A stretch of 64,000 bases of DNA from Asaia bogorensis NBRC 16594 (GTDB lineage Bacteria > Pseudomonadota > Alphaproteobacteria > Acetobacterales > Acetobacteraceae). The stretch lies in the NCBI RefSeq assembly GCF_001547995.1, contig NZ_AP014690.1:1981001-2045000 (forward strand), given 5' to 3'. Shown piece after piece: positions 22,365-34,236 of the stretch. The position numbers and the translations under genes are program-made. Below the pieces are notes generated by a model. The model was given only the letters and a program-made list of their open reading frames with translations. It did no database searches and was not told where the DNA came from. How positions within the stretch are numbered: the stretch's first letter is position 1; every line of letters begins with the position of its first letter.

Positions 22365-23504
22365 ATGGTCGCCTTCTCACGCTCTCTGCCCAGCCGCTTC
22401 CTGCCCCCACGCCACCCGCTCAGATTCCGTTTCCGAGCGATTTCGGCAGTTGCCAGCCTTGCCCTGCTTGCCCATGCAGCACCGGCGAGAGCGTCTCATG
22501 AGCGCCCTTGGGTTGCCGATACCGAAGGCGCGCGTGTGGTTGCGACAATCGATCTGCCCGAGGCACGCCGCTGGAAACAGGCCCTCCCCCTCAAGAACAA
22601 CCGGATCGTCCTGCTATGCGACGCTACGGAACAAGGCGTCGGGTCCGGAAATAACTGCCTGATGAGGCTGAGCGCAGATCAGACTTCGAAGCCCGTCGCC
22701 TCGCCCCTGACGATCGTATGGCCGGAAGGCGGCACAGAGCCTCACGTTAACACGTCTCTCTTGCCCGTTGCCCTCGCTTACGGCACTGACGGTACGCTGT
22801 GGTTGCTCGACGGGGGCGCAGACAAGGCCGCGCCGCGCCTGATCCGTTTTGACCCGACATCAGGGCGGGTCCTCCAGACGCAGGAGATCCCCGCCGAAGG
22901 ATACACGCCCCAATCCCGCTTCACGGCATTCGCCGTTCATGGCGACATGGCCTATCTGGCTGATGAGGGTGGCATTGCCCTGACCGTGCTTGACCTCAGA
23001 CGTCATGCTGCCACGCGGTTTTTCGCTGGCTACCCCACATCTCGCGGGCATGTGCCCCTGACCATCGATGGCCACTCGGTACCGGGCAAGGACGGGCATC
23101 CCCTCACGCGCGACCTTGCCTATCTGGCACTCGAAACCAACGGTCAATGGCTTTACGAGCTGGCCCCTACCGGGCCGATCTACCGCCTCTCCGCCGATCT
23201 GCTGAACGATCCTTCCGTGACCCCGTCCGAACTCATGGAAGGGGTGACGCAATGGCGTGGCACGCCCACCGTCAGCGGGATCACGATCGATGACAAGGCC
23301 ACGCTCTATCTGACCGATATCAGCGCGGGACGCGTCCTGAGTTTCGACACCGCACGGCATCCGCATATCCTTCTGTCATCGCATGAACTGGTCGGGGCCG
23401 GTATGCCGCAATGGGTGCCGGGCGAAGCCGGGCACAGCACCACGGGCGCGGGGGAGCTTTACATTCCGGTCGGATCCAGGCTGTTGCGCATTGCCCTGCC
23501 CTGA
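22365..23504 (+). CDS. Royal-jelly/Yellow-type beta-propeller protein, exported
   Basis: 379 residues. The N terminus has a basic stretch and hydrophobic core ending LLAHAAPARAS, a signal peptide. The body resembles the major royal jelly protein/Yellow family, relatives of SMP-30 six-bladed propellers: LAYGTDGTLWLLDGG, ALTVLDLRRHAATRFF, SGITIDDKATLYLTDISAGRVL. A strong site AAAGGAG lies 5 bases before ATG 22365, which rules out the longer upstream frame. A second family member is at 45581-46810. Enzyme activity, if any, is unknown. thrC follows 73 bases later and may be co-transcribed. Confidence 0.72.
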   Translation: MVAFSRSLPSRFLPPRHPLRFRFRAISAVASLALLAHAAPARASHERPWVADTEGARVVATIDLPEARRWKQALPLKNNRIVLLCDATEQGVGSGNNCLMRLSADQTSKPVASPLTIVWPEGGTEPHVNTSLLPVALAYGTDGTLWLLDGGADKAAPRLIRFDPTSGRVLQTQEIPAEGYTPQSRFTAFAVHGDMAYLADEGGIALTVLDLRRHAATRFFAGYPTSRGHVPLTIDGHSVPGKDGHPLTRDLAYLALETNGQWLYELAPTGPIYRLSADLLNDPSVTPSELMEGVTQWRGTPTVSGITIDDKATLYLTDISAGRVLSFDTARHPHILLSSHELVGAGMPQWVPGEAGHSTTGAGELYIPVGSRLLRIALP

Positions 23505-23577
23505 AATACGGGCCATTTCTTCTTTTTCGTCTTTTTCTCGCCCCCGGTTTTCCAGCCAAGCAATCATGAAGGCCATC

Positions 23578-24984
23578 ATGCAGTACCGTTCCACCCGCGG
23601 CGATGCGCGCCCGCGCTCCTTTTCAGACATCCTGCTCGCCGGTCTGGCAGAGGATGGTGGGCTGTACATGCCGGAAACCTGGCCCCGCTTCACGGCAGAT
23701 GAGTGGCGCGCCATGCGCAGCCTCTCCTATCCTGATCTGGCCGCAAAAATCCTCTCGGTCTTTGCCGCGGGCAGCATAGACCTGCCGACATTGCAGAAGC
23801 TCTGCGCGAAGGCCTATGCCGGTTTTTCGCATGCCGCCATCGCGCCGCTGGTAGAGGTCGAGAACGGGCTGTTCTCGATGGAGCTGTTTCACGGCCCCAC
23901 CCTCGCCTTCAAGGACATGGCCATGCAGCTGCTTGGCCAGCTTTTCGAGCATGTCCTGACGGAGCGCAACCAGCGCGTGACGATCGTGGGCGCCACGTCG
24001 GGCGATACCGGCTCTGCGGCCATCGAGGCTTTCCGTGGCAGCCCACATCTCTCGGTTGCGATCCTGCATCCGATGGGCCGCACATCGGATGTGCAGCGCC
24101 GCCAGATGACGACTGTTCACGATGACAACATCCTGAACATCGCCGTCGAGGGGACATTCGATGATTGTCAGGATCTGGTGAAGGCCATGTTTGCCGATAC
24201 CGGCTTTCGCGATGAGATCGGCCTTTCCGCGGTCAATTCGATCAACTGGGCACGCATTGCCGCACAGATCCCGTATTACGTGCGCGCTGCCCTCATGATG
24301 GGTGCGCCTGATCGCGAAGTCTCATTTGCCGTTCCGACGGGCAATTTCGGCAATGTGCTCGCGGCCTGGGCGGCCAGCCAGATGGGGCTGCCAATCCGCC
24401 GTCTGTGCATTGGCTCGAACCGCAACGACATTCTTACCCGCTTCCTGACCAGCAACGACATGAGCATGCGCGCCGTTGAGCCAAGCCTGTCGCCCTCGAT
24501 GGATATCCAGATTTCATCCAATTTCGAGCGCCTGCTGTTTGAACTGCTCGATCGCGATCCGGTTGCCTGCCGGGAAACCATGCAGAGTTTCCGCCAGACA
24601 GGCCGCATGAGCGTCGATCCTGCCGTATGGAACCGTGCGCGTGAGCGTTTTGGCGCTCTCATGCTCGATGATGAGGCAACGCTGGGCGAGATGAAGGCGC
24701 TGTGGGACAATTCGCTCTATCTGGCCGACCCGCACAGCGCGATCGGACTGGCTGCTGGCCGTCAGGAGCAGGAGCCGGGAATTCCGATGATCGTGGCCGC
24801 CACGGCCCATCCAGCCAAGTTCCCCGATGCTGTGCGCAAGGCCACGGGTATCGACCCGGCGCTACCGCCGCATCTGGCGGATCTGTTCGCCCGTGAAGAG
24901 CGTTACGAAACGCAGCCCAATGAGCTCAACCTCGTTGAGGATGCCGTAAGGCGTCATCTGGCCGGTCACGTTCACGCGGCCTGA
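23578..24984 (+). CDS. thrC: Threonine synthase
   Basis: 468 residues, PLP enzyme converting O-phosphohomoserine to threonine. It belongs to the longer proteobacterial class: QYRSTRGDARPRSFSDILLAGLAEDGGLYMPE at the N terminus, catalytic Lys in HGPTLAFKDMAMQLLGQ, GATSGDTGSAAIEAF for phosphate binding, and VPTGNFGNVLAAW. ATG 23578 reproduces the normal M-x-Y-x-STRG start with AAGG upstream; ATG 23566 is possible. Confidence 0.95.
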   Translation: MQYRSTRGDARPRSFSDILLAGLAEDGGLYMPETWPRFTADEWRAMRSLSYPDLAAKILSVFAAGSIDLPTLQKLCAKAYAGFSHAAIAPLVEVENGLFSMELFHGPTLAFKDMAMQLLGQLFEHVLTERNQRVTIVGATSGDTGSAAIEAFRGSPHLSVAILHPMGRTSDVQRRQMTTVHDDNILNIAVEGTFDDCQDLVKAMFADTGFRDEIGLSAVNSINWARIAAQIPYYVRAALMMGAPDREVSFAVPTGNFGNVLAAWAASQMGLPIRRLCIGSNRNDILTRFLTSNDMSMRAVEPSLSPSMDIQISSNFERLLFELLDRDPVACRETMQSFRQTGRMSVDPAVWNRARERFGALMLDDEATLGEMKALWDNSLYLADPHSAIGLAAGRQEQEPGIPMIVAATAHPAKFPDAVRKATGIDPALPPHLADLFAREERYETQPNELNLVEDAVRRHLAGHVHAA

Positions 24985-25112
24985 CATCCGGGCAGGCATC
25001 AGACACGCCCTGGCACGATCATCCAGCGCGGGGGGCTAGGATTTTGCCCTCCGCGACGCCATCTCATTTTACAGCCCCCGTTTTCCTTCGATTTCAGGAC
25101 CATCACCACTCG

Positions 25113-26378
25113 ATGACCGATCCGATTACCGTCACCACCCTTCCCAATGGCCTCACTGTCGTAACCGAGAGGATGGAGCGCGTCGAAACCGTGTCCTTCG
25201 GGGCCTATGTTGCCACCGGCACGCGCAACGAAAGCGCAGAGGAAAACGGTGTTTCGCATTTTCTGGAGCATATGGCCTTCAAGGGCACGCAGCGCCGTAG
25301 CGCCGCACGTATTGCCGAAGAGATCGAGAATGTGGGGGGGCATATCAACGCCTACACGGCCCGCGAGCAGACGGCCTATTACGTCAAGCTTCTGAAGGAA
25401 GACCTTCCGCTCGGTATCGACATCATTGGTGATATCCTTACCCACAGCACGTTTCTCGATCAGGAAGTCGAGCGCGAGCGCGGTGTGATCCTGCAGGAAA
25501 TCGGTCAGGCGAACGATACACCTGACGACATCATTTTCGACCATTTTCAGGAAACGGCTTTCCGCGATCAGCCTATGGGGCGTCCGACCCTGGGCACCGA
25601 GGGGCTCATTGCCTCGATGAAGCGCGAGACCATGATGCGCTACATGCAAACGCATTATACCACGCGTAACATGGTCATCGCCGCAGTCGGCAATTTGCAG
25701 CATGATGCCGTGCTGGAAATGGTGCAGGAGCATTTTCGCGATCTTCCCGACCATCAGCCACCCTCACGTGAGGGATGCACCTATCTCGGTGGCGAGCATC
25801 GCGAGAAGCGCGAGCTCGATCAGGCGCATATCGTGCTGGGCTTTCCCTCGGTCAGCTATAATGACCCGGCCTATCATGCGACCATGCTGCTCTCGACCGT
25901 CCTTGGCGGGGGCATGTCCTCGCGTCTGTTCCAGGAAATCCGCGAAAAGCGCGGCCTTGTCTACTCGGTTTATTCCTTCGCCCTGCCCTTCCTCGATAGC
26001 GGGCTTTTCGGCATCTATGCCGGAACGGGCGAGCAGGAGGCGGCAGAGCTTGTGCCGGTCCTGCTGGACGAGTTGCGCCGTATCGGCGATGGCATCAGTC
26101 CGGAGGAAATTGCCCGTGCCCGTGCACAGGTCAAATCCTCGCTTCTGATGTCGCTGGAAAGCACGGGCAGCCGCTGTGAGCAGATCGCCCGCCAGATGCA
26201 GCTTTTCGGGCGGATTATCGACACGAGCGAGACCGTGGCAAAAATCGATTCTGTGGATGAAGGGGCCATGATCCGCGCCGCCGAGACACTGTTTCGTGCC
26301 CGCCCCACGCTCGCAACCATTGGCCCGGTGGGGGCCATTCCGTCATTTGAGGCCATCAGCCAAAGGCTTGTTGCATGA
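25113..26378 (+). CDS. M16-family zinc peptidase (processing-peptidase type)
   Basis: 421 residues. Related to the beta subunit of the mitochondrial processing peptidase. The inverted zinc motif HFLEH lies at residues 49-53 with the downstream glutamate in the ETAYY...ERGVILQEI region. GGGMSSRLFQEIREKRGLVYSVYSF in the second half is the conserved substrate-binding segment. Start at ATG 25113 (MTDPITVTTLPNGLTVV). Its stop overlaps pmbA by ATGA, which argues for a proteolysis operon; downstream is a Tim44-like gene, another relative of mitochondrial import parts. Confidence 0.92.
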   Translation: MTDPITVTTLPNGLTVVTERMERVETVSFGAYVATGTRNESAEENGVSHFLEHMAFKGTQRRSAARIAEEIENVGGHINAYTAREQTAYYVKLLKEDLPLGIDIIGDILTHSTFLDQEVERERGVILQEIGQANDTPDDIIFDHFQETAFRDQPMGRPTLGTEGLIASMKRETMMRYMQTHYTTRNMVIAAVGNLQHDAVLEMVQEHFRDLPDHQPPSREGCTYLGGEHREKRELDQAHIVLGFPSVSYNDPAYHATMLLSTVLGGGMSSRLFQEIREKRGLVYSVYSFALPFLDSGLFGIYAGTGEQEAAELVPVLLDELRRIGDGISPEEIARARAQVKSSLLMSLESTGSRCEQIARQMQLFGRIIDTSETVAKIDSVDEGAMIRAAETLFRARPTLATIGPVGAIPSFEAISQRLVA

Positions 26379-27718
26379 GCAAGGACCAGGAGCGTCTTTC
26401 AGACCTGATCGAAGCCGCAAAGCGCGCCGGAGCCGATCGGGCCGATGCGCTCATGGTGGCCTCGCGTTCGGTTTCGGCCATGTGCCGTCAGGGCGTACCG
26501 GAAGGGCTGGAGCACTCCGAAACCCTCGCGCTCGGCCTGCGCGTGTTCGTTGGTAAACGCGCGGCCAGTGTTTCGGCCACGGCACTCGACCCGAGCCGCT
26601 TCGAGGCGCTTGCCCAGCAGGCCGTTGCCATGGCGCATGTCGTGCCTGAGGATGCTTGGGCCGGTGCAGTCGATCCCGACCGGCAGGGCGTGTACGACAT
26701 CGCGGCGCTCGATATGGTCGATCCGACCGAAGCCCCGAGCCTCGATGCCTTGCTGGCCCGGGCGCGCGAGGCCGAGGAAATCGCCCTCGGCATCAAGGGG
26801 ATCACCAATAGCAATGGCGCCTCAGCGGGCTATAGCCGCGTCGAGATCACCCTGGCTGAAAGCAGCGGTTTCAGCGGCGCTTATGCCCAGACCAGCCATA
26901 GCAACGGCATCAGCGTGCTCGCCGGTGACGGGCCGAGCATGCAGCGTGACTATGCCGGACATAGCACGCGCCATCTGACCGATCTGGATAGCCCTGCGCT
27001 GCTCGGACGCGAGGCGGCCGAACGAGCTCTCGCACGCATGAACCCGGTCAAGCCGCGCACCGGATCATTCCCGGTGGTGTTCGACCCACGTGTCTCATCC
27101 AGCCTGCTCGGCCATCTGGCGGGTGCCATCAATGGCTCTGCCATCGCACGCGGCACGTCGTTTCTGTCCGGCCACAAGGGCAAGCGCATCCTGCCGGAAG
27201 CCCTAAGCGTCATCGATGACCCGACGCGCGCCCGCGGCCTGCGCTCAAAGCCTTTCGATGCCGAGGGCCTGCTGCCCAGCCCTCTCGCCTTTGTTGAAAA
27301 TGGTGTGCTTACGGACTGGATTCTGGATGGTCGCTCGTCCCGCCAGCTTGGTCTGATCAATAACGGTCGCGCCTCGCGCGGGGTGGGTGGTCCCCCCTCT
27401 CCGGCAGTCGGCAACTTCTACCTGACGGGCGGAACGGGATCACGCGCTGCGCTGATGGAGGACATTGTCGAGGGCATCTATGTGACCGAGATGATGGGGT
27501 CTTCCATCAACGGCCTGACAGGCGATTACAGCCGTGGCGCGTCGGGTTTCATGATTCGTCAAGGTCAGCTTGCGGAACCTGTCGCCGAGTTGACCATTGC
27601 AGGTAATCTCATCGAGATGTTCGCGGCCCTGCGTGCCGCCGACGATCTCGTCTTCCGCCACGGTGTCGATGCCCCGACACTAAGGATCGACGCCATGAGC
27701 GTTGCCGGAAGCCAGTAA
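26375..27718 (+). CDS. pmbA: PmbA/TldE-family metalloprotease-associated protein
   Basis: 447 residues. PmbA (TldE) forms a complex with TldD that degrades certain peptides, including microcin B17 precursor and CcdA in E. coli. Seen: GADRADALMVASRSVSAMCRQG, YSRVEITLAESSGFSGAYAQTSHSN, FPVVFDPRVSSSLLGHLAGAINGSAIARG, and the C-terminal GGTGSRAALMEDIVEGIYVTEMMG...GDYSRGASGF. TldE lacks the HExxxH motif of TldD, and none is seen here. ATGA overlap with the preceding M16 gene. Confidence 0.92.
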   Translation: MSKDQERLSDLIEAAKRAGADRADALMVASRSVSAMCRQGVPEGLEHSETLALGLRVFVGKRAASVSATALDPSRFEALAQQAVAMAHVVPEDAWAGAVDPDRQGVYDIAALDMVDPTEAPSLDALLARAREAEEIALGIKGITNSNGASAGYSRVEITLAESSGFSGAYAQTSHSNGISVLAGDGPSMQRDYAGHSTRHLTDLDSPALLGREAAERALARMNPVKPRTGSFPVVFDPRVSSSLLGHLAGAINGSAIARGTSFLSGHKGKRILPEALSVIDDPTRARGLRSKPFDAEGLLPSPLAFVENGVLTDWILDGRSSRQLGLINNGRASRGVGGPPSPAVGNFYLTGGTGSRAALMEDIVEGIYVTEMMGSSINGLTGDYSRGASGFMIRQGQLAEPVAELTIAGNLIEMFAALRAADDLVFRHGVDAPTLRIDAMSVAGSQ

Positions 27719-27727
27719 GGAGTTCTC

Positions 27728-28633
27728 ATGTCACGCCGCCTGTTCCGCGCCTCTCTTCTGCTTGTTGCCCTTGCCCCGCTTCTGGCCGCCCCGGCCGATG
27801 CGCGCCCCGGTGGCGGTCGCTCCATGGGAAGCCGGGGAAGCCGCACCTATTCTCCCCCGCCCATGACTCAGACCGCGCCTTATCAGGCCCGGCCCATGGA
27901 GCGAAGCTATACCCCCTCATCCCCGTCACCAGGGTATAGCAACCCGATGCAGCGCCCGATGGGCCAGCCTTACGGCTTTGCACAGCGCCGCCCCTTCATG
28001 ACCGGCTTTGTGGGTGGCCTGCTGGGTGCCGGCCTGTTCGGCATGCTGTCAGGGCACGGTTTTCTTGGTGGTATCGGCGGGGGGCTCTCCTTCCTCGGCC
28101 TGCTATTCCAGATTGCGCTGTTCGGTTTCATTATCGTGATGGTGCTGCGCTGGCTTGGCAATCGTCGCCAGGGTGGTGCCAGTGCCCCTCAGAGCCCCGG
28201 CTTTTCCGGTGGTGCCGGGGCGCCGGCCGTGACACTGAACAACAGCGATTACCAGAACTTCCAGCGCCTTCTGCTCGACATCCAGGCTGCCTGGAGTGCC
28301 CAGAACATGCGGGCGCTTTCCAGCATGGCCACGCCGGAGATGGTGTCGTATTTCAACGAGCAGCTGGCCGATTATGCCAGCCGTGGTGCACGCAATATCG
28401 TATCGGACGTGCAATTCATGCGCGGCGATCTCTCGGAAGCATGGCGTGAGGGCAACCTGACCTATGCCACCGTTGCCATGCAGTATTCGCTGTATGACGT
28501 CACGACCGATCAGCTCGGCAACGTCATTGATGGCAGCAAAACCGAGCGTCAGGTGGTGACAGAGCTCTGGACCTTCGTACGTGCCGATGGACGCGGGAAC
28601 TGGGTACTTTCCGCCATCCAGCAGGTTGGCTGA
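27728..28633 (+). CDS. Exported/membrane Tim44-like domain protein
   Basis: 301 residues. Signal-like N terminus (LFRASLLLVALAPLLAAPADA), a low-complexity Ser/Pro/Gly/Tyr region (about 25-95), two glycine-rich membrane segments (about 96-147) and a C-terminal Tim44-like domain from about 170 (NNSDYQNFQRLLLDIQAAWS...TELWTFVRADGRGNWVLSAIQQVG). AAGGAG lies 6 bases before the ATG. It begins 9 bases after pmbA and is probably the third gene of the M16-pmbA operon. A rho-independent terminator follows at 28733. Confidence 0.87.
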   Translation: MSRRLFRASLLLVALAPLLAAPADARPGGGRSMGSRGSRTYSPPPMTQTAPYQARPMERSYTPSSPSPGYSNPMQRPMGQPYGFAQRRPFMTGFVGGLLGAGLFGMLSGHGFLGGIGGGLSFLGLLFQIALFGFIIVMVLRWLGNRRQGGASAPQSPGFSGGAGAPAVTLNNSDYQNFQRLLLDIQAAWSAQNMRALSSMATPEMVSYFNEQLADYASRGARNIVSDVQFMRGDLSEAWREGNLTYATVAMQYSLYDVTTDQLGNVIDGSKTERQVVTELWTFVRADGRGNWVLSAIQQVG

Positions 28634-28732
28634 AACGACGGCCAAGGCCGCGTTTGTGCCGGGCCAGGTCGGGTAATCGCTGACGCGGGAGGATGGGTAA
28701 CTCCTACCGCGTCTCACCGCTCCTAGAACTGA

Positions 28733-28762
28733 AGCCGGAGCCCCTGAGGGCTTCGGCTTTTG
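28733..28762 (+). terminator. Rho-independent terminator of the M16-pmbA-Tim44 run
   Basis: Stem AGCCGGAGCCC / GGGCTTCGGCT (11 pairs with one G-T) around a CTGA loop, followed by TTTTGTGT, about 100 bases after the stop of the Tim44-like gene. A second hairpin (ACGCGG...CCGCGT, 28683-28712) lies just before it. Confidence 0.75.
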
Positions 28763-29400
28763 TGTATGGGGAAGTCACCGAAGCTCCCCTTCGGACGGGG
28801 CACGCTTTGGACGATCGACTGCGTTGTCCCGACATTGACGAGGTGCGGGTTTGCCCCCTTTGACGCGAAGGGGGCGCATTGAGCGGATTGTCGGGGCATC
28901 GACGATAATCCGTACCGGATATGCCAGCCCCACTTGTCTGTGTCTGGTATTCGGACCCGACGGCACTCGGACACATCCTCCCAACGCGCAGCCGTTCTTT
29001 TCAGATGCCAAATCGTCGTTGGTCGTATTGGCTGATCGTTATCACGACGTAACGCTGCCCTCACCATCACGGCTATACCGCCCCTCAACCTCTTTGTCTG
29101 CCTATGCAATGACTCGCGGCGGCTTCTGCCTCGCAGCACCGCCAGCGTTGTCTCAGACCCTTTTGAAGAGTCGAGCATCGTCCCGATCAGAGGGATAGTA
29201 GCGGCCAACCAGAACGATGCTGGCCCCGGCCCTACAAACATATCCGGCAGCCGGAAGACCCACGGGAATCAGTGGCGTTGCTGCGGCCCTATCCTCATCG
29301 TTACCTTAAGGCAGCACCACAGGCGTGAAGCCTAAGTAGCGGATCTCTCGTACCCCTCTGGCGCGGGATCGGGCCGCAGTTGCAAGAGCGCCCGCGGGTC
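28763..29400. other. Gene-poor region, origin unclear
   Basis: About 640 bases between the terminator at 28733 and the coxF-like gene. Open frames run on both strands (28851-29198 plus; 28723-29241 minus), but neither shows a domain, a ribosome site or conserved spacing. Composition stays GC-rich with Ser/Arg-heavy conceptual products. It might be a decayed gene; no transposase motif or terminal repeats were recognised. Confidence 0.4.
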
Positions 29401-29511
29401 TCAGAGACGCAAATAGGTCAGGGCGAAAAGAGAGATCATGACCAGTGACAGACCACCCAGCAGGCCCATGATCCGCCCCTGACGGCGCACGGCGAGTTCG
29501 TTTTTCATCAT
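29401..29511 (-). CDS. CoxF-like cytochrome oxidase small protein
   Basis: 36 residues (starting MMKNELAVRRQGRIMGLL). A basic N-terminal half is followed by one membrane segment ending LFALTYLRL. The ATG overlaps the ctaB stop as ATGA. In alphaproteobacterial coxBA-ctaB-coxF-ctaG-coxC clusters a tiny single-span protein with the same layout (R-x-R-N, membrane segment, short R-L/K-M tail) follows ctaB. Identification rests on that synteny and shape. The neighbouring coxB, ctaG and coxC are absent. Confidence 0.6.
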   Translation of the reverse strand: MMKNELAVRRQGRIMGLLGGLSLVMISLFALTYLRL

Positions 29512-30449
29512 GGAAACAACACCCGATCGATCAGCAGGGCTGAAAACAGAAAGAACAGATACGCCAGCGAATACCGGAAGGCATAGCGGGCAGGCTTGTC
29601 AGCCGTCAGGCTCACCCCGGTCTCGTCTTGCTTGTCGAGCAGAACACGCAAGGCAAATCCCACAAAACCCAGCCCGAGAACCGTGGCGCTCACCGTGTAG
29701 ATCAATCCGCAAAGATGCAGAAAGGACGGCACCAGAGACACAGCCAGCAGGATCAGCGTGTAGATGAAGACATTCCAGCGCGTATGACGAGCCCCCTTCA
29801 CCACGGGCAGCATCGGGATGCCAGCCTTCGTGTAATCCTTGCAGGCGTAGAGCGAGAGCGACCAGAAATGGGGCGGCGTCCACAGGAACACGATGGCAAA
29901 CATTACCACCGGCAATACGCTCATGGAGCCTGTAGCCGCAGCCCAGCCGATCATGGGCGGAAAGGCTCCGGCTGCTCCGCCAATCACGATATTCTGCGGT
30001 GTGCTCCGCTTTAGCCACATGGTGTAGATGACGGCATAGAAGAAAATCGAAAACGCCAGAATACCCGCAGCGAGAGCATTGCTCGCCAGCCAGAGCAGAG
30101 CCACAGAAGCCAGCGACAGCACAACGCCATAGATAAGGGCGCCATCGGCATCCATACGGGAGTCCGGAATGGGCCTCACCGAAGTCCGCTTCATGATCGC
30201 GTCAATATCGCGGTCATACCACATATTGATGGCACCGGCCGCCCCTGCTCCGACGCATATGCAGAGCATATCGATCAGACCGAGCGGAACCGAAGGCCAT
30301 GTCGGTGCCACGGCCATGCCCGCCACACCTGTGAACACAACCAGCGAGATGACACGCGGCTTCAGCAGCGCAAGCCAGTCCCTGAGCGTCGCCCCTTGAA
30401 GGCGATCGAATCCCGGCTCGACATGCGGCAATGATTGTGAGGCACTCAT
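29508..30449 (-). CDS. ctaB: Protohaem IX farnesyltransferase (haem O synthase)
   Basis: 313 residues, UbiA-type prenyltransferase with about nine spans. Adds a farnesyl group to haem B to make haem O. First aspartate motif NMWYDRDIDAIMKRT; second region HFWSLSLYACKDYTKAGIPMLPVVKG. LRDWLALLKPRVISLVVFTGVAGM is the classic N terminus. It overlaps the CtaD-like gene upstream (ATGA) and the CoxF-like gene downstream (ATGA). Haem O is needed for bo3 ubiquinol oxidase, so the gene can stay essential without a functional cytochrome c oxidase (inference). Confidence 0.95.
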   Translation of the reverse strand: MSASQSLPHVEPGFDRLQGATLRDWLALLKPRVISLVVFTGVAGMAVAPTWPSVPLGLIDMLCICVGAGAAGAINMWYDRDIDAIMKRTSVRPIPDSRMDADGALIYGVVLSLASVALLWLASNALAAGILAFSIFFYAVIYTMWLKRSTPQNIVIGGAAGAFPPMIGWAAATGSMSVLPVVMFAIVFLWTPPHFWSLSLYACKDYTKAGIPMLPVVKGARHTRWNVFIYTLILLAVSLVPSFLHLCGLIYTVSATVLGLGFVGFALRVLLDKQDETGVSLTADKPARYAFRYSLAYLFFLFSALLIDRVLFP

Positions 30450-31639
30450 GAAAGGTCGACCTTCGCAGGCTCACGCAATGGCATGATCAGTCTGACGCCC
30501 AGACAGGCAACACAGCAGAGTGAGACCATCATGCCGGCCTCGCCGATATGCCGTAGCATGGGCAGAAACGGGATCATGGCCAGCACCGCTATACCCATCG
30601 AAACAAGATGAAGACGACCGAGCCAGAGAGGTGCGGCCATATCGCCCAGCCGGGCCTGCCAGCGATAATAGCAGCCAAACAACGCAAACACCGCGCCAAA
30701 CAGCATGGCGGAATGAAAGGCCTCCGGACGGGCGGGAAAGAGATAGAGCACCCACCCCGCAGAGAGCAGGAGCAACGCCGGAAAGCTCCAGGAGAGCGCA
30801 TAGGTCATGGTGAAGCTGCGACGCCATAGGGAAGCGCAGATCAGCCCCATGATCCCGAAACAAGGGAGTGCAACGCCTGCCCCCAGAAGCCACGCCTCGG
30901 AAAGCCCCGGCACGATAACTCCATGCGCCCAGACCACCGATACACCAAGCGTCGGTACCGCCATAAGCAGTGGCAGAACGATCTTGGCACGGGTTGAATG
31001 GAAGGAAACGAGGTTTGCAATCGCCCCGAGGGCGAGTTGCATGACAAGGGCCAGTACGGGAACCTGGATACGACCAAGCCATACGCCAGCCACAATTTGC
31101 GCATCCCCGCCCGCCACGAGGTCATGGCACAGGCCAGCCAGCACAACAGGGACGATGACGATCAAGCCAAGTGACGCGAGAAGTTGTGACCAGGTAAAGG
31201 GCGACAGGTCACGAAAGCGCACAACGCGACACTCGAGACATTTGACGATGGTCGACAGCGCCAGCAACACAACACCAACCGACCAAAGCCCCATCGAGAC
31301 GGCAAACAGGTCAGGTCGTGAAACACCGCCAAGCGCGCAGAGCGCCCCGAGGAACATTGCGACAAGAGCCACACGGTCAAAACGGACCATCAAGGACGGG
31401 AGGGATGTCAGCTCACCCGGCAGGATCAATCGTCCCATGCCGCCTAGAAAAGCCGGGATCAGGACAAAAAGATCGAGCAGCAATCCATGGCCCAGCGCAT
31501 GGGTTGGGCCGGTATTCTGGGAAACAAACCCGAGGAAACCACCTGCGAGACCGCAAAAGAGCGCCAGGGCGAGAAAAGCAGCACCATCGGCCCGCAATGT
31601 CAGACCCTCGCGGCGTCTCGAAATCGGCAACTGTAACAA
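30446..31639 (-). CDS. CtaD-like membrane protein lacking the oxygen-reducing centre
   Basis: 397 residues, about 12 membrane spans, resembling haem-copper oxidase subunit I, which is normally over 500 residues. Helix II GHGLLLDLFVLIPAFLGGMG keeps the haem a ligand (His51). The segment GGDAQIVAGVWLGRIQVPVL aligns with GGDP...FFGHPEVYIL, placing Arg190, Gln192 and Pro194 at the CuB His, proton-gate Glu and cross-linked Tyr. Helix VII VVWAHG keeps His239 but has Gly240 for the second His. Helix X AFHSAMLFGAVFALF has Ala307 for the haem a3 ligand and keeps His309 for haem a. The start is TTG with AAGGA 7 bases upstream. Overlaps ctaB. NnrS-like or other haem-copper relatives are less good fits. 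Confidence 0.75.
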   Translation of the reverse strand: MLQLPISRRREGLTLRADGAAFLALALFCGLAGGFLGFVSQNTGPTHALGHGLLLDLFVLIPAFLGGMGRLILPGELTSLPSLMVRFDRVALVAMFLGALCALGGVSRPDLFAVSMGLWSVGVVLLALSTIVKCLECRVVRFRDLSPFTWSQLLASLGLIVIVPVVLAGLCHDLVAGGDAQIVAGVWLGRIQVPVLALVMQLALGAIANLVSFHSTRAKIVLPLLMAVPTLGVSVVWAHGVIVPGLSEAWLLGAGVALPCFGIMGLICASLWRRSFTMTYALSWSFPALLLLSAGWVLYLFPARPEAFHSAMLFGAVFALFGCYYRWQARLGDMAAPLWLGRLHLVSMGIAVLAMIPFLPMLRHIGEAGMMVSLCCVACLGVRLIMPLREPAKVDLS

Positions 31640-31741
31640 GACCCGTTCCTTATTCCGTCCTGGGGGTCCTCATGCCATCAGCATCGGAAAGGGACCCTGA
31701 GATCAAGGCCAGTCTGGTATGATTTGTCGGGCACAAACGTG

Positions 31742-32464
31742 TCAGGCAACCAGGGCCGTCTCTTCCTTACTATCCTTCTCGATCGGCAATGTCACGAGCG
31801 TAAACAGTCCCGCAGGCGGGACCGGCGTGATGGTTGCGCGGCTCAGATCTTCAGGCGGCAGCAGGGATTCCATAGCAAAATCCGGGTGCCAGCCGAGCGA
31901 TCGGGAAGCCCGGGCCATACCGCGTTCTACAGCCAGCCGGACGCCGCCCGTCGCAAGGAAATGATTGACGAACAGGATATGGCCGCCCGGCTTCACCACG
32001 CGCTTGAGCTCGCCCAGAAGACGACGTGGGCTTGGCACGACGGATGCGACGAACATCGCCACAGCAATATCAAAGCTTCCCGCCTCGAAAGTGGTCGCTT
32101 CAGCATCCATTTCCTGCAGATCATCGACATTGCCGAGCTGCTGGTTGATTACACGCTGACGGGCGCGCTCGAGCATGGCCTCGGAGAGGTCGATACCGGT
32201 GATATGCTTGTCGCGATTGTAATGCGGCAGCGCAAGCCCTGTACCGACCCCAACCTCCAGCACGCGTTGGCCCGGCAACGCATTGACAGCGGCGACAGCA
32301 CGGCGACGACCGAATGCGGAGATGCCGCCAAACACGGAGTCATACACCTTGGCCCAGCGGCGATAAGCTGCGCGGACAGCATCAGCGTCCAGTGCAGAGC
32401 GGGGGCGAGGATGCGTATCGTCAAGGGAGACGGTCGGGTCGATCAGGGGGTCCGGTCGTGTCAT
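31742..32464 (-). CDS. SAM-dependent methyltransferase, PmtA-like
   Basis: 240 residues. Class I methyltransferase with YRRWAKVYDSVFGG, motif I VLEVGVGTGLALPHY, ITGIDLSEAMLERAR, and VKPGGHILFVNHF. The N terminus and motif spacing resemble the Rhodobacter-type phosphatidylethanolamine N-methyltransferase PmtA, which makes phosphatidylcholine; ubiquinone-type methyltransferases are the main alternative. ATG 32464 (MTRPDPLID) is chosen; an ATG at 32551 would add 29 residues. It is upstream of the CtaD-like gene on the same strand (102 bases). Confidence 0.75.
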   Translation of the reverse strand: MTRPDPLIDPTVSLDDTHPRPRSALDADAVRAAYRRWAKVYDSVFGGISAFGRRRAVAAVNALPGQRVLEVGVGTGLALPHYNRDKHITGIDLSEAMLERARQRVINQQLGNVDDLQEMDAEATTFEAGSFDIAVAMFVASVVPSPRRLLGELKRVVKPGGHILFVNHFLATGGVRLAVERGMARASRSLGWHPDFAMESLLPPEDLSRATITPVPPAGLFTLVTLPIEKDSKEETALVA

Positions 32465-32738
32465 CAGGCTTCGTTCGTCTGGTCGCACAAAATCATTGGT
32501 TTTGTCCTGATACCTGTCCCGAAATCCCCTTGCGAGACCTCGGCCATTCAAAATTGTCGCCCGACCGCAGCCAGCGTGGCAGGCATCGAACAGATCAGAT
32601 GCTCTTAGCGTATCTCGTCAGAACTGGCGAGGGGCGGTTTGCATTTCGTCACAGGCAACGCCTAGAAGATAGGCAATAATAACGGGAGAGCGCCCGAGCC
32701 CGGGCCACGCACTCAAGCCCGGAGATGAGAACGTCACA

Positions 32739-33084: not shown

Positions 33085-34065
33085 TCAGCCGAGGCGCTTT
33101 TCGATGGCATCCCAGATTAGGCCGGCACTGTTCATGTCGTTGAAACGGTCCAGTTCCTGCAGGCCCGTCGGGGAGGTCACGTTGATCTCGGTCAGCCAAT
33201 CGCCGATCACGTCGATCCCGACGAAGATGAGCCCGTTTTCACGCAGATATGATCCGATACGCGCACAGATTTCCTGATCGCGCGCCGTCAGGGCGACGGC
33301 TTCCGCCCGACCACCCACATGCATGTTCGAGCGGGCCTCGCCTGTAGCAGGAACGCGGTTGATCGCACCGATCGGCTCGCCATCGACCAGTATGATGCGT
33401 TTGTCGCCCTTGCGCACCATCGGCTCATAACGCTGGATCATGAGCGGTTCACGCGAACGGCTGAAATGCAGCTCCAGCAATGACGCAAAATTCTCATCGC
33501 CTTCACGAATACGGAAGATCCCCGCCCCGCCATTACCGTAGAGCGGTTTGAGAATCACATCGCCATAGCGGGCCCGGAATTCGGCCAGCGCCTCAGTGTC
33601 CCACGTGACCAGTGTTGGGGGCATGAGATCAGGATAATGCGTGACAAGCAGCTTCTCGGGAGCGTTTCGTACGGCTTGCGGGTCATTCACGACCAGTGTC
33701 TTGCCAGGTCCAACACCGTGGACATGCTCGAGCATGTGGGTGGCGGTAATATATCCCATATCGAAGGGTGGATCCTGACGCATCAGCACCACATCGGTCT
33801 CACCCAGATCCAGACGCTGCTCTGCGCCGAAGGTCGCATGCCCCCCCTGCACGCGTTGCACCGAAACCGGACGCGCCCGCGCAGAAACCCGACCATGATG
33901 CAGCGTTTTCTCTGCCCCGCCTTCGCCAAGACATAGCGAGTCCACAGGATATACAAAGAGTTCGTGCCCACGTCTCTGGGCTTCGAGCATCAGGGCGAAG
34001 GTCGAGTCCCCGTTGATATTGACGTGCTCAAGCGGGTCCATCTGTACGGCTATGCGTAGGGCCAT
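33085..34065 (-). CDS. gshB: Glutathione synthetase
   Basis: 326 residues, ATP-grasp enzyme joining gamma-glutamylcysteine and glycine. Seen: [20 protein letters not shown] at the N terminus, [53 protein letters not shown], and [23 protein letters not shown] 34065 has AAAGGA 9 bases upstream; an ATG at 34110 is not supported. Full length for the bacterial enzyme. Glutathione could serve the peroxidase at 10942, though that type often uses thioredoxin. Confidence 0.96.
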
Positions 34066-34236
34066 CGTCTTCGTCCTTTCGGTATCTGCAAACCAGAATG
34101 TCATCGTCACACACCAGGCGCGATCCCTGGCTCTTGCCCTGCGGGGCGGTTTGCATCACGCCACACCCATATCATGAGCGAGCGCCCTGCCAAGCATGCG
34201 CAAAAAGAAAGTCTGGAGGGGCCTTACGGCTCCCCC

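Follow-up and report, generated by a model that had tools for sequence, protein, structure and literature searches.

A COX1-like protein encoded before ctaB in Acetobacteraceae keeps both low-spin haem ligand positions and has lost the oxygen-reducing centre

The locus described here raises the question of what purpose a gene for subunit I of a haem-copper oxidase may serve beside ctaB when its product has lost the residues that reduce oxygen. The window, a stretch of 64,000 nucleotides from Asaia bogorensis NBRC 16594, carries on its reverse strand a frame from 31639 to 30446 that is open throughout from a TTG start (Table 1). An earlier note on this DNA had described the frame as open and as overlapping ctaB, and both points hold, with 397 codons for amino acids and four shared bases, ATGA. 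The gene itself is already known in print: ctaB (APT_01774) and ctaD (APT_01775) appear among the conserved genes of Acetobacter pasteurianus in a list in PMC5158111, and another paper describes, next to ctaB in Acetobacter, a COX1-like gene from which every cofactor ligand has been lost (Degli Esposti 2023, PMC10715153, citing Matsutani 2014). A proteome paper (PMC10742644) names, in the section concerned, CyoE and CyoC as cytochrome c oxidase. We found no published statement of invariant low-spin haem ligands, and no mutants of the cox1-like gene, in the literature searched. Two other genes in the window's genome, with frames of 664 and 696 aa, lie above the Pfam COX1 cut-off; we take them to be CyoB, subunit I of the bo3 quinol oxidase, because two cyoABCD operons are named for this strain in a passage of PMC4596401. 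CtaA, Cox11 and SURF1 were not found in the window's genome.

Table 1. Features of the cox1-like locus, in positions of the window
Feature	Position	Strand	Remark
cox1-like gene (degenerate ctaD)	30446..31639	-	397 aa, 12 predicted membrane helices
His51 codon	31487..31489	-	helix II low-spin haem ligand; invariant, 57/57 distinct full-length members
His309 codon	30713..30715	-	helix X low-spin haem ligand; invariant, 57/57 distinct full-length members
Val193 codon	31061..31063	-	position of first CuB His (HPEVY)
His239-Gly240 codons	30920..30925	-	position of CuB His-His pair
Ala307 codon	30719..30721	-	position of haem a3 ligand
AAGGA	31647..31651	-	plausible ribosome-binding site, 7 nt before TTG start of cox1-like gene
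ATGA	30446..30449	-	cox1-like stop / ctaB start, 4-base overlap
ctaB, haem O synthase (UbiA family), 313 aa	29508..30449	-	directly downstream of cox1-like gene
class I methyltransferase	31742..32551	-	upstream neighbour; also precedes ctaC in true cox operon of L196
gshB, glutathione synthase	33085..34110	-	conserved neighbour
thrC, M16 peptidase, PmbA/TldD, Tim44-like genes	23383..28633	+	usual flank

Taken singly, the 397-aa sequence gives weak evidence of being COX1: Pfam COX1 matched it with an E value of 0.054, under the cut-off, NCBIfam returned no match, and the best PDB chain had an E value of 7e-5. The profile of the family was far more decisive, since it matched 41 distinct PDB sequences at E ≤0.01 (best 6e-77), every one of them named as oxidase subunit I or as a fusion containing it, and among 42 aligned members 31 matched Pfam COX1 (E ≤0.01) and 25 matched NCBIfam CtaD. 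The AlphaFold2 model (mean pLDDT 90.6, pTM 0.90) has the COX1 fold with 12 membrane helices, and Foldseek at E ≤0.001 returned 41 PDB chains, all haem-copper oxidases or supercomplexes holding one; superposition on COX1 of Paracoccus aa3 (1ar1_A; TMq 0.75, rmsd 5.1 A) is loose in detail. The proposed alignment with subunit I is thus upheld by the family profile and by the modelled structure, and none of the searches (Pfam, NCBIfam, PDB profile search, Foldseek) produced a better match to a different family.

A first search found the gene in 51 of 249 Acetobacteraceae genomes, and a 42-member profile added five more (G071, G122, G173, G181 and G056), which places the family in at least 56 of the 249 sampled genomes and in 21 of 102 genera. 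Bit scores against that profile were 259-302 for true COX1, 112 and 127 for CyoB and 142 for G056, the most diverged member; over the family profiles CyoB reached 112-137 and G056 142-143. As the score of G056 lies so near those of CyoB, weak profile matches could hide further members, and the count of 56 is a lower bound. Relatives elsewhere in Alphaproteobacteria were sought in 385 genomes, and the 27 best-ranked outside loci were compared. Twenty-six of them were rejected as members on account of HPEVY and H.H motifs like those of true COX1, as was L129 (477 aa), which has HPE and H.H; neither L129 nor L149 showed the W.HH pattern. A true COX1 gene adjoins ctaB in G019, G038 and G110, and G012 is cut at the locus.

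The central result comes from a comparison of the ligand positions in 57 distinct full-length members and 58 true COX1 proteins. The earlier note had identified His51 in helix II and His309 in helix X as the retained haem a ligands, and the alignment bears this out, with His at both positions in all 57 members, the most diverged included; the free variation that would have counted against the idea does not occur. The six residues examined in the oxygen-reducing centre are kept in only 0 to 27 of the 57: the three CuB ligands in 0, 27 and 5 members, respectively, the haem a3 His in two, the cross-linked Tyr in none and the gate Glu in 27. In the window protein Gly240 stands at the second CuB His of the HH pair and Ala307 at the haem a3 ligand, as first proposed, and His239 occupies the first position of the pair, as in 27/57 members. 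The assignments in helix VI needed correction. Arg190, Gln192 and Pro194 had been assigned to the missing CuB His, gate Glu and Tyr, a register that is off by three; Pro194 aligns with the Pro of HPEVY, and the lost residues correspond to Val193, Val195 and Ala197. Possession of HPEVY was a criterion in choosing the true COX1 set, which makes those letters conserved there by design but leaves the two haem ligands unaffected.

Conservation across the whole alignment sets the two histidines apart. There are 195 columns in which at most one of the 58 true COX1 sequences departs from the conserved residue, and five of these are kept in every member of the family, namely the two low-spin haem His, one Pro and two Trp; true COX1 has 11 conserved His columns, and only the two haem ligands survive throughout. 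The chance that both would fall among five of 195 columns is ∼5e-4 (20/(195×194)), and retention by chance was rejected. The Arg pair of COX1, which holds the haem propionates, falls opposite gaps in 55 of 56 members, a point against the cytochrome reading given below. The family therefore shares with family A subunit I (CtaD/COX1, Paracoccus aa3, 1ar1) the fold, the 12 helices, the bis-His low-spin ligands and the place in the operon before ctaB, but differs in having no conserved CuB, haem a3 or cross-linked Tyr sites, in the gaps at the Arg pair, and in length, its frames being mostly 400-480 aa as against 530 and more in true COX1. CyoB likewise has a homologous fold and haem ligands, but both copies in the window's genome keep the binuclear-centre residues, which the cox1-like family does not.

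These ligands have survived in a very divergent family. Median pairwise identity among 52 members is 26%, and tree distances average ∼4.2 substitutions per site within a sample of the family (15 × 15) against 0.34 within one of true COX1 (12 × 12), so that the His pair was retained through heavy change. In the FastTree phylogeny all 57 members form one monophyletic group with support of 1.0, which does not group with CyoB and stands beside all 58 true COX1 sequences and not within them; its placement outside true COX1 may reflect long-branch attraction. The Acetobacter protein with deranged sequence described in part of PMC10715153 is likewise COX1-like, encoded beside ctaB and found in acetous bacteria lacking cytochrome c oxidase, and, compared by description, it probably belongs to the same family. 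It was described there as lacking all cofactor residues, whereas both low-spin ligands are kept in 57/57 members here; judged by the family's own sequences, that description does not appear to fit. The same passages suggest that the Acetobacter protein binds no haem and only stabilises CtaB in the membrane. Such a structural remnant would accord with the linkage of the gene to ctaB and with its very rapid divergence, which a scaffold might be expected to show, but it would not explain why both axial ligands persist in every member amid near-total drift from COX1, and ctaB occurs without the upstream gene in four genomes discussed below (G001, G053, G077, G179). We regard this explanation as unlikely.

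The gene is under purifying selection between Asaia copies. The closest Asaia pair (L009 and L001) has a dN of 0.022 and a dS of 0.272 for the cox1-like gene, a dN/dS of ∼0.08, with a dN of 0.008 and a dS of 0.181 for ctaB; for most wider Asaia pairs dS exceeds 1, too high to be trusted. Of the 56 family genomes, 55 have an open frame and the copy in the last (G009) runs off its contig, so orthologues are not often broken. One sequence outside this count, an Asaia platycodi draft that was fetched separately (L006 6001-7160), reads in another frame over helix II, through either a draft error or a real break. We also considered slow decay of a gene kept only for the translation of ctaB through the four-base overlap. 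The overlap itself, the few genomes with no such gene before ctaB and the shifted draft all speak for it, and against it stand the dN/dS of the closest pair, the open frames, the two invariant ligands and the high-confidence predicted COX1 fold; decay is strongly disfavoured, and we consider it very improbable. The claim that the locus does not represent simple decay is accordingly well borne out by the open frames and the low dN/dS.

The association with ctaB is almost unbroken. The gene ctaB lies directly 3' on the same strand in 55 of the 56 family genomes (50 of the 51 found first and all five of those added by profile), and in G009 the cox1-like gene and ctaB are each at a contig end. Counted by locus the figure is 56/57, where six of the 56 linked loci are named Asaia contigs, two of them identical in sequence to sampled genomes. 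The usual order is gshB, methyltransferase, cox1-like gene and ctaB, followed on the other strand by the Tim44-like, PmbA, M16 and thrC genes; six loci (L043, L045, L046, L048, L052 and L057) have no Tim44-to-thrC flank within the stretch compared. In the window the gap between the Tim44-like gene and ctaB (28634-29507, 874 bases) is wider than in most compared loci. No Rfam family at gathering score and no tRNA was found around it, and its promoter and terminator matches were not above those in shuffled sequence.

A true oxidase locus, L196, has the order methyltransferase-ctaC-ctaD-ctaB-ctaG-ctaE-surf1 with thrC and M16 genes further on, from which it follows that the cox1-like gene occupies the former place of ctaD. 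Descent in place from a ctaC-ctaD-ctaB-ctaG-ctaE-surf1 operon is well supported, and the neighbourhood of ctaB may in part be inertia of that old operon. Such descent would by itself account for the ctaB neighbour if the protein were a bis-His electron-transfer cytochrome of the quinol branch, unrelated to haem O synthesis, and a membrane cytochrome b requires a low-spin site and no O2 site. Against this, no subunit II gene lies between the methyltransferase and the cox1-like gene at the locus, no quinone or donor site was identified, and the cox1-like gene was found in none of the 13 genomes (of 249) that have no ctaB match, nine of which have no profile match at all and four only weak ones. 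We think this role improbable. One genome lacking ctaB, G210 (1.7 Mb), also lacks a PF00115 match and the cox1-like gene; in four others of its genus (G030, G117, G169 and G242) all three are present.

The complement of oxidase assembly factors agrees with the loss of the oxygen-reducing site. Cox11, which serves CuB insertion, was found in 0 of 55 family genomes (a set that leaves out G056) but in 51 of the 55 true-oxidase genomes that served as control, chosen by a strong true COX1 match. CtaA was found in 28 of the 55 family genomes and, with its absence from the matches in the window's genome, this indicates that the retained site is independent of haem A. Neither Cox11 nor SURF1 was found in the family genomes searched, a difference from CtaD/COX1. 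For SURF1 (PF02104) the search covered 60 genomes, the 56 of the family together with G001, G053, G077 and G179, all with a ctaB match, and gave no match in any; the true-oxidase genome compared, L196, has it.

We also compared 20 further ctaB genomes, taken from those whose best COX1 score lay below the range of a full true COX1. Thirteen have part of a cox1 gene upstream of ctaB, with the H.H motif in 11 of them and, in the other two, a short C-terminal fragment with true COX1 sequence and the Arg pair; three are cut at a contig end. The remaining four have no cox1-like gene upstream of ctaB. In G001 (L182, L191) the methyltransferase is followed by ctaB with the flanks otherwise unchanged, a natural deletion; G053 (L190, L194) and G179 (L187, L193) also have nothing cox1-like between methyltransferase and ctaB, and in G077 (L184, L192) ctaB is in another setting, again with no cox1-like gene. 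Weak profile matches elsewhere in these four genomes (best E 7e-27 to 7e-33) are in the CyoB range or below. It follows that CtaB can do without the cox1-like protein and that the gene is not strictly required there, and, as the same four genomes have no SURF1, that the absence of SURF1 alone does not call for the gene.

Weighing these observations, we judge the best reading to be a bis-His membrane cytochrome that works with CtaB on haem O, to which we would give about an even chance. Its parts are of different strength. Haem binding by the cox1-like protein is likely; joint work with CtaB could as easily prove wrong as right. The two axial His lie at equal depth in the modelled helices (0.81 and 0.84), and together with the lack of a second metal site this would suggest a one-haem cytochrome, while being translated together with CtaB suggests a place in the haem O pathway. 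On this reading of a cytochrome allied to CtaB, an ancestral operon for cytochrome c oxidase would have lost ctaC, ctaG, ctaE and surf1 and kept its ctaD in place, and this ctaD product would have become a membrane cytochrome with one haem between His51 and His309 and with no CuB, haem a3 or O2 chemistry. That haem would be B or O in Asaia, for which the search gave no haem A synthase. The protein would most probably work with the co-translated CtaB in haem O synthesis, either by adjusting CtaB as its haem-loaded partner or by accepting or carrying new haem O on its way to the bo3/ba3 quinol oxidase. Even after losing O2 reduction, a subunit I could retain the role of a Cox1-like partner; there is a possible parallel in yeast, in which multimerisation of Cox10 seems, in the account given in part of PMC7140478, to require newly made Cox1. 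For E. coli bo3, a section of one review knows of no specific assembly protein besides haem O synthase (PMC9145763).

More specifically, we propose, tentatively and at somewhat less than even odds, that a stripped oxidase subunit serves CtaB by accepting or carrying haem O or by sensing its haem state in bacteria with quinol oxidases, perhaps in place of SURF1-type factors. If one haem is still carried in 21 genera, the family would be a rare example of a haem-copper oxidase cut back to a simple cytochrome, and the proposal, if true, would offer a way into two questions, the release of haem O from CtaB and the loading of bo3 oxidases. Conservation of the assumed cytoplasmic half, where CtaB would act, is not significantly above that of the periplasmic half (p 0.42), and so lends no support to a CtaB contact there. 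On the claim as first made, that a bis-His site was kept while the O2 centre was lost, the family at large agrees. Two further features of the protein may be recorded: a conserved block from R138 to W150 around PFVWSQLL, on the assumed cytoplasmic side, and a third nearly invariant histidine, His344 in helix XI, present in 49 of 52 members.
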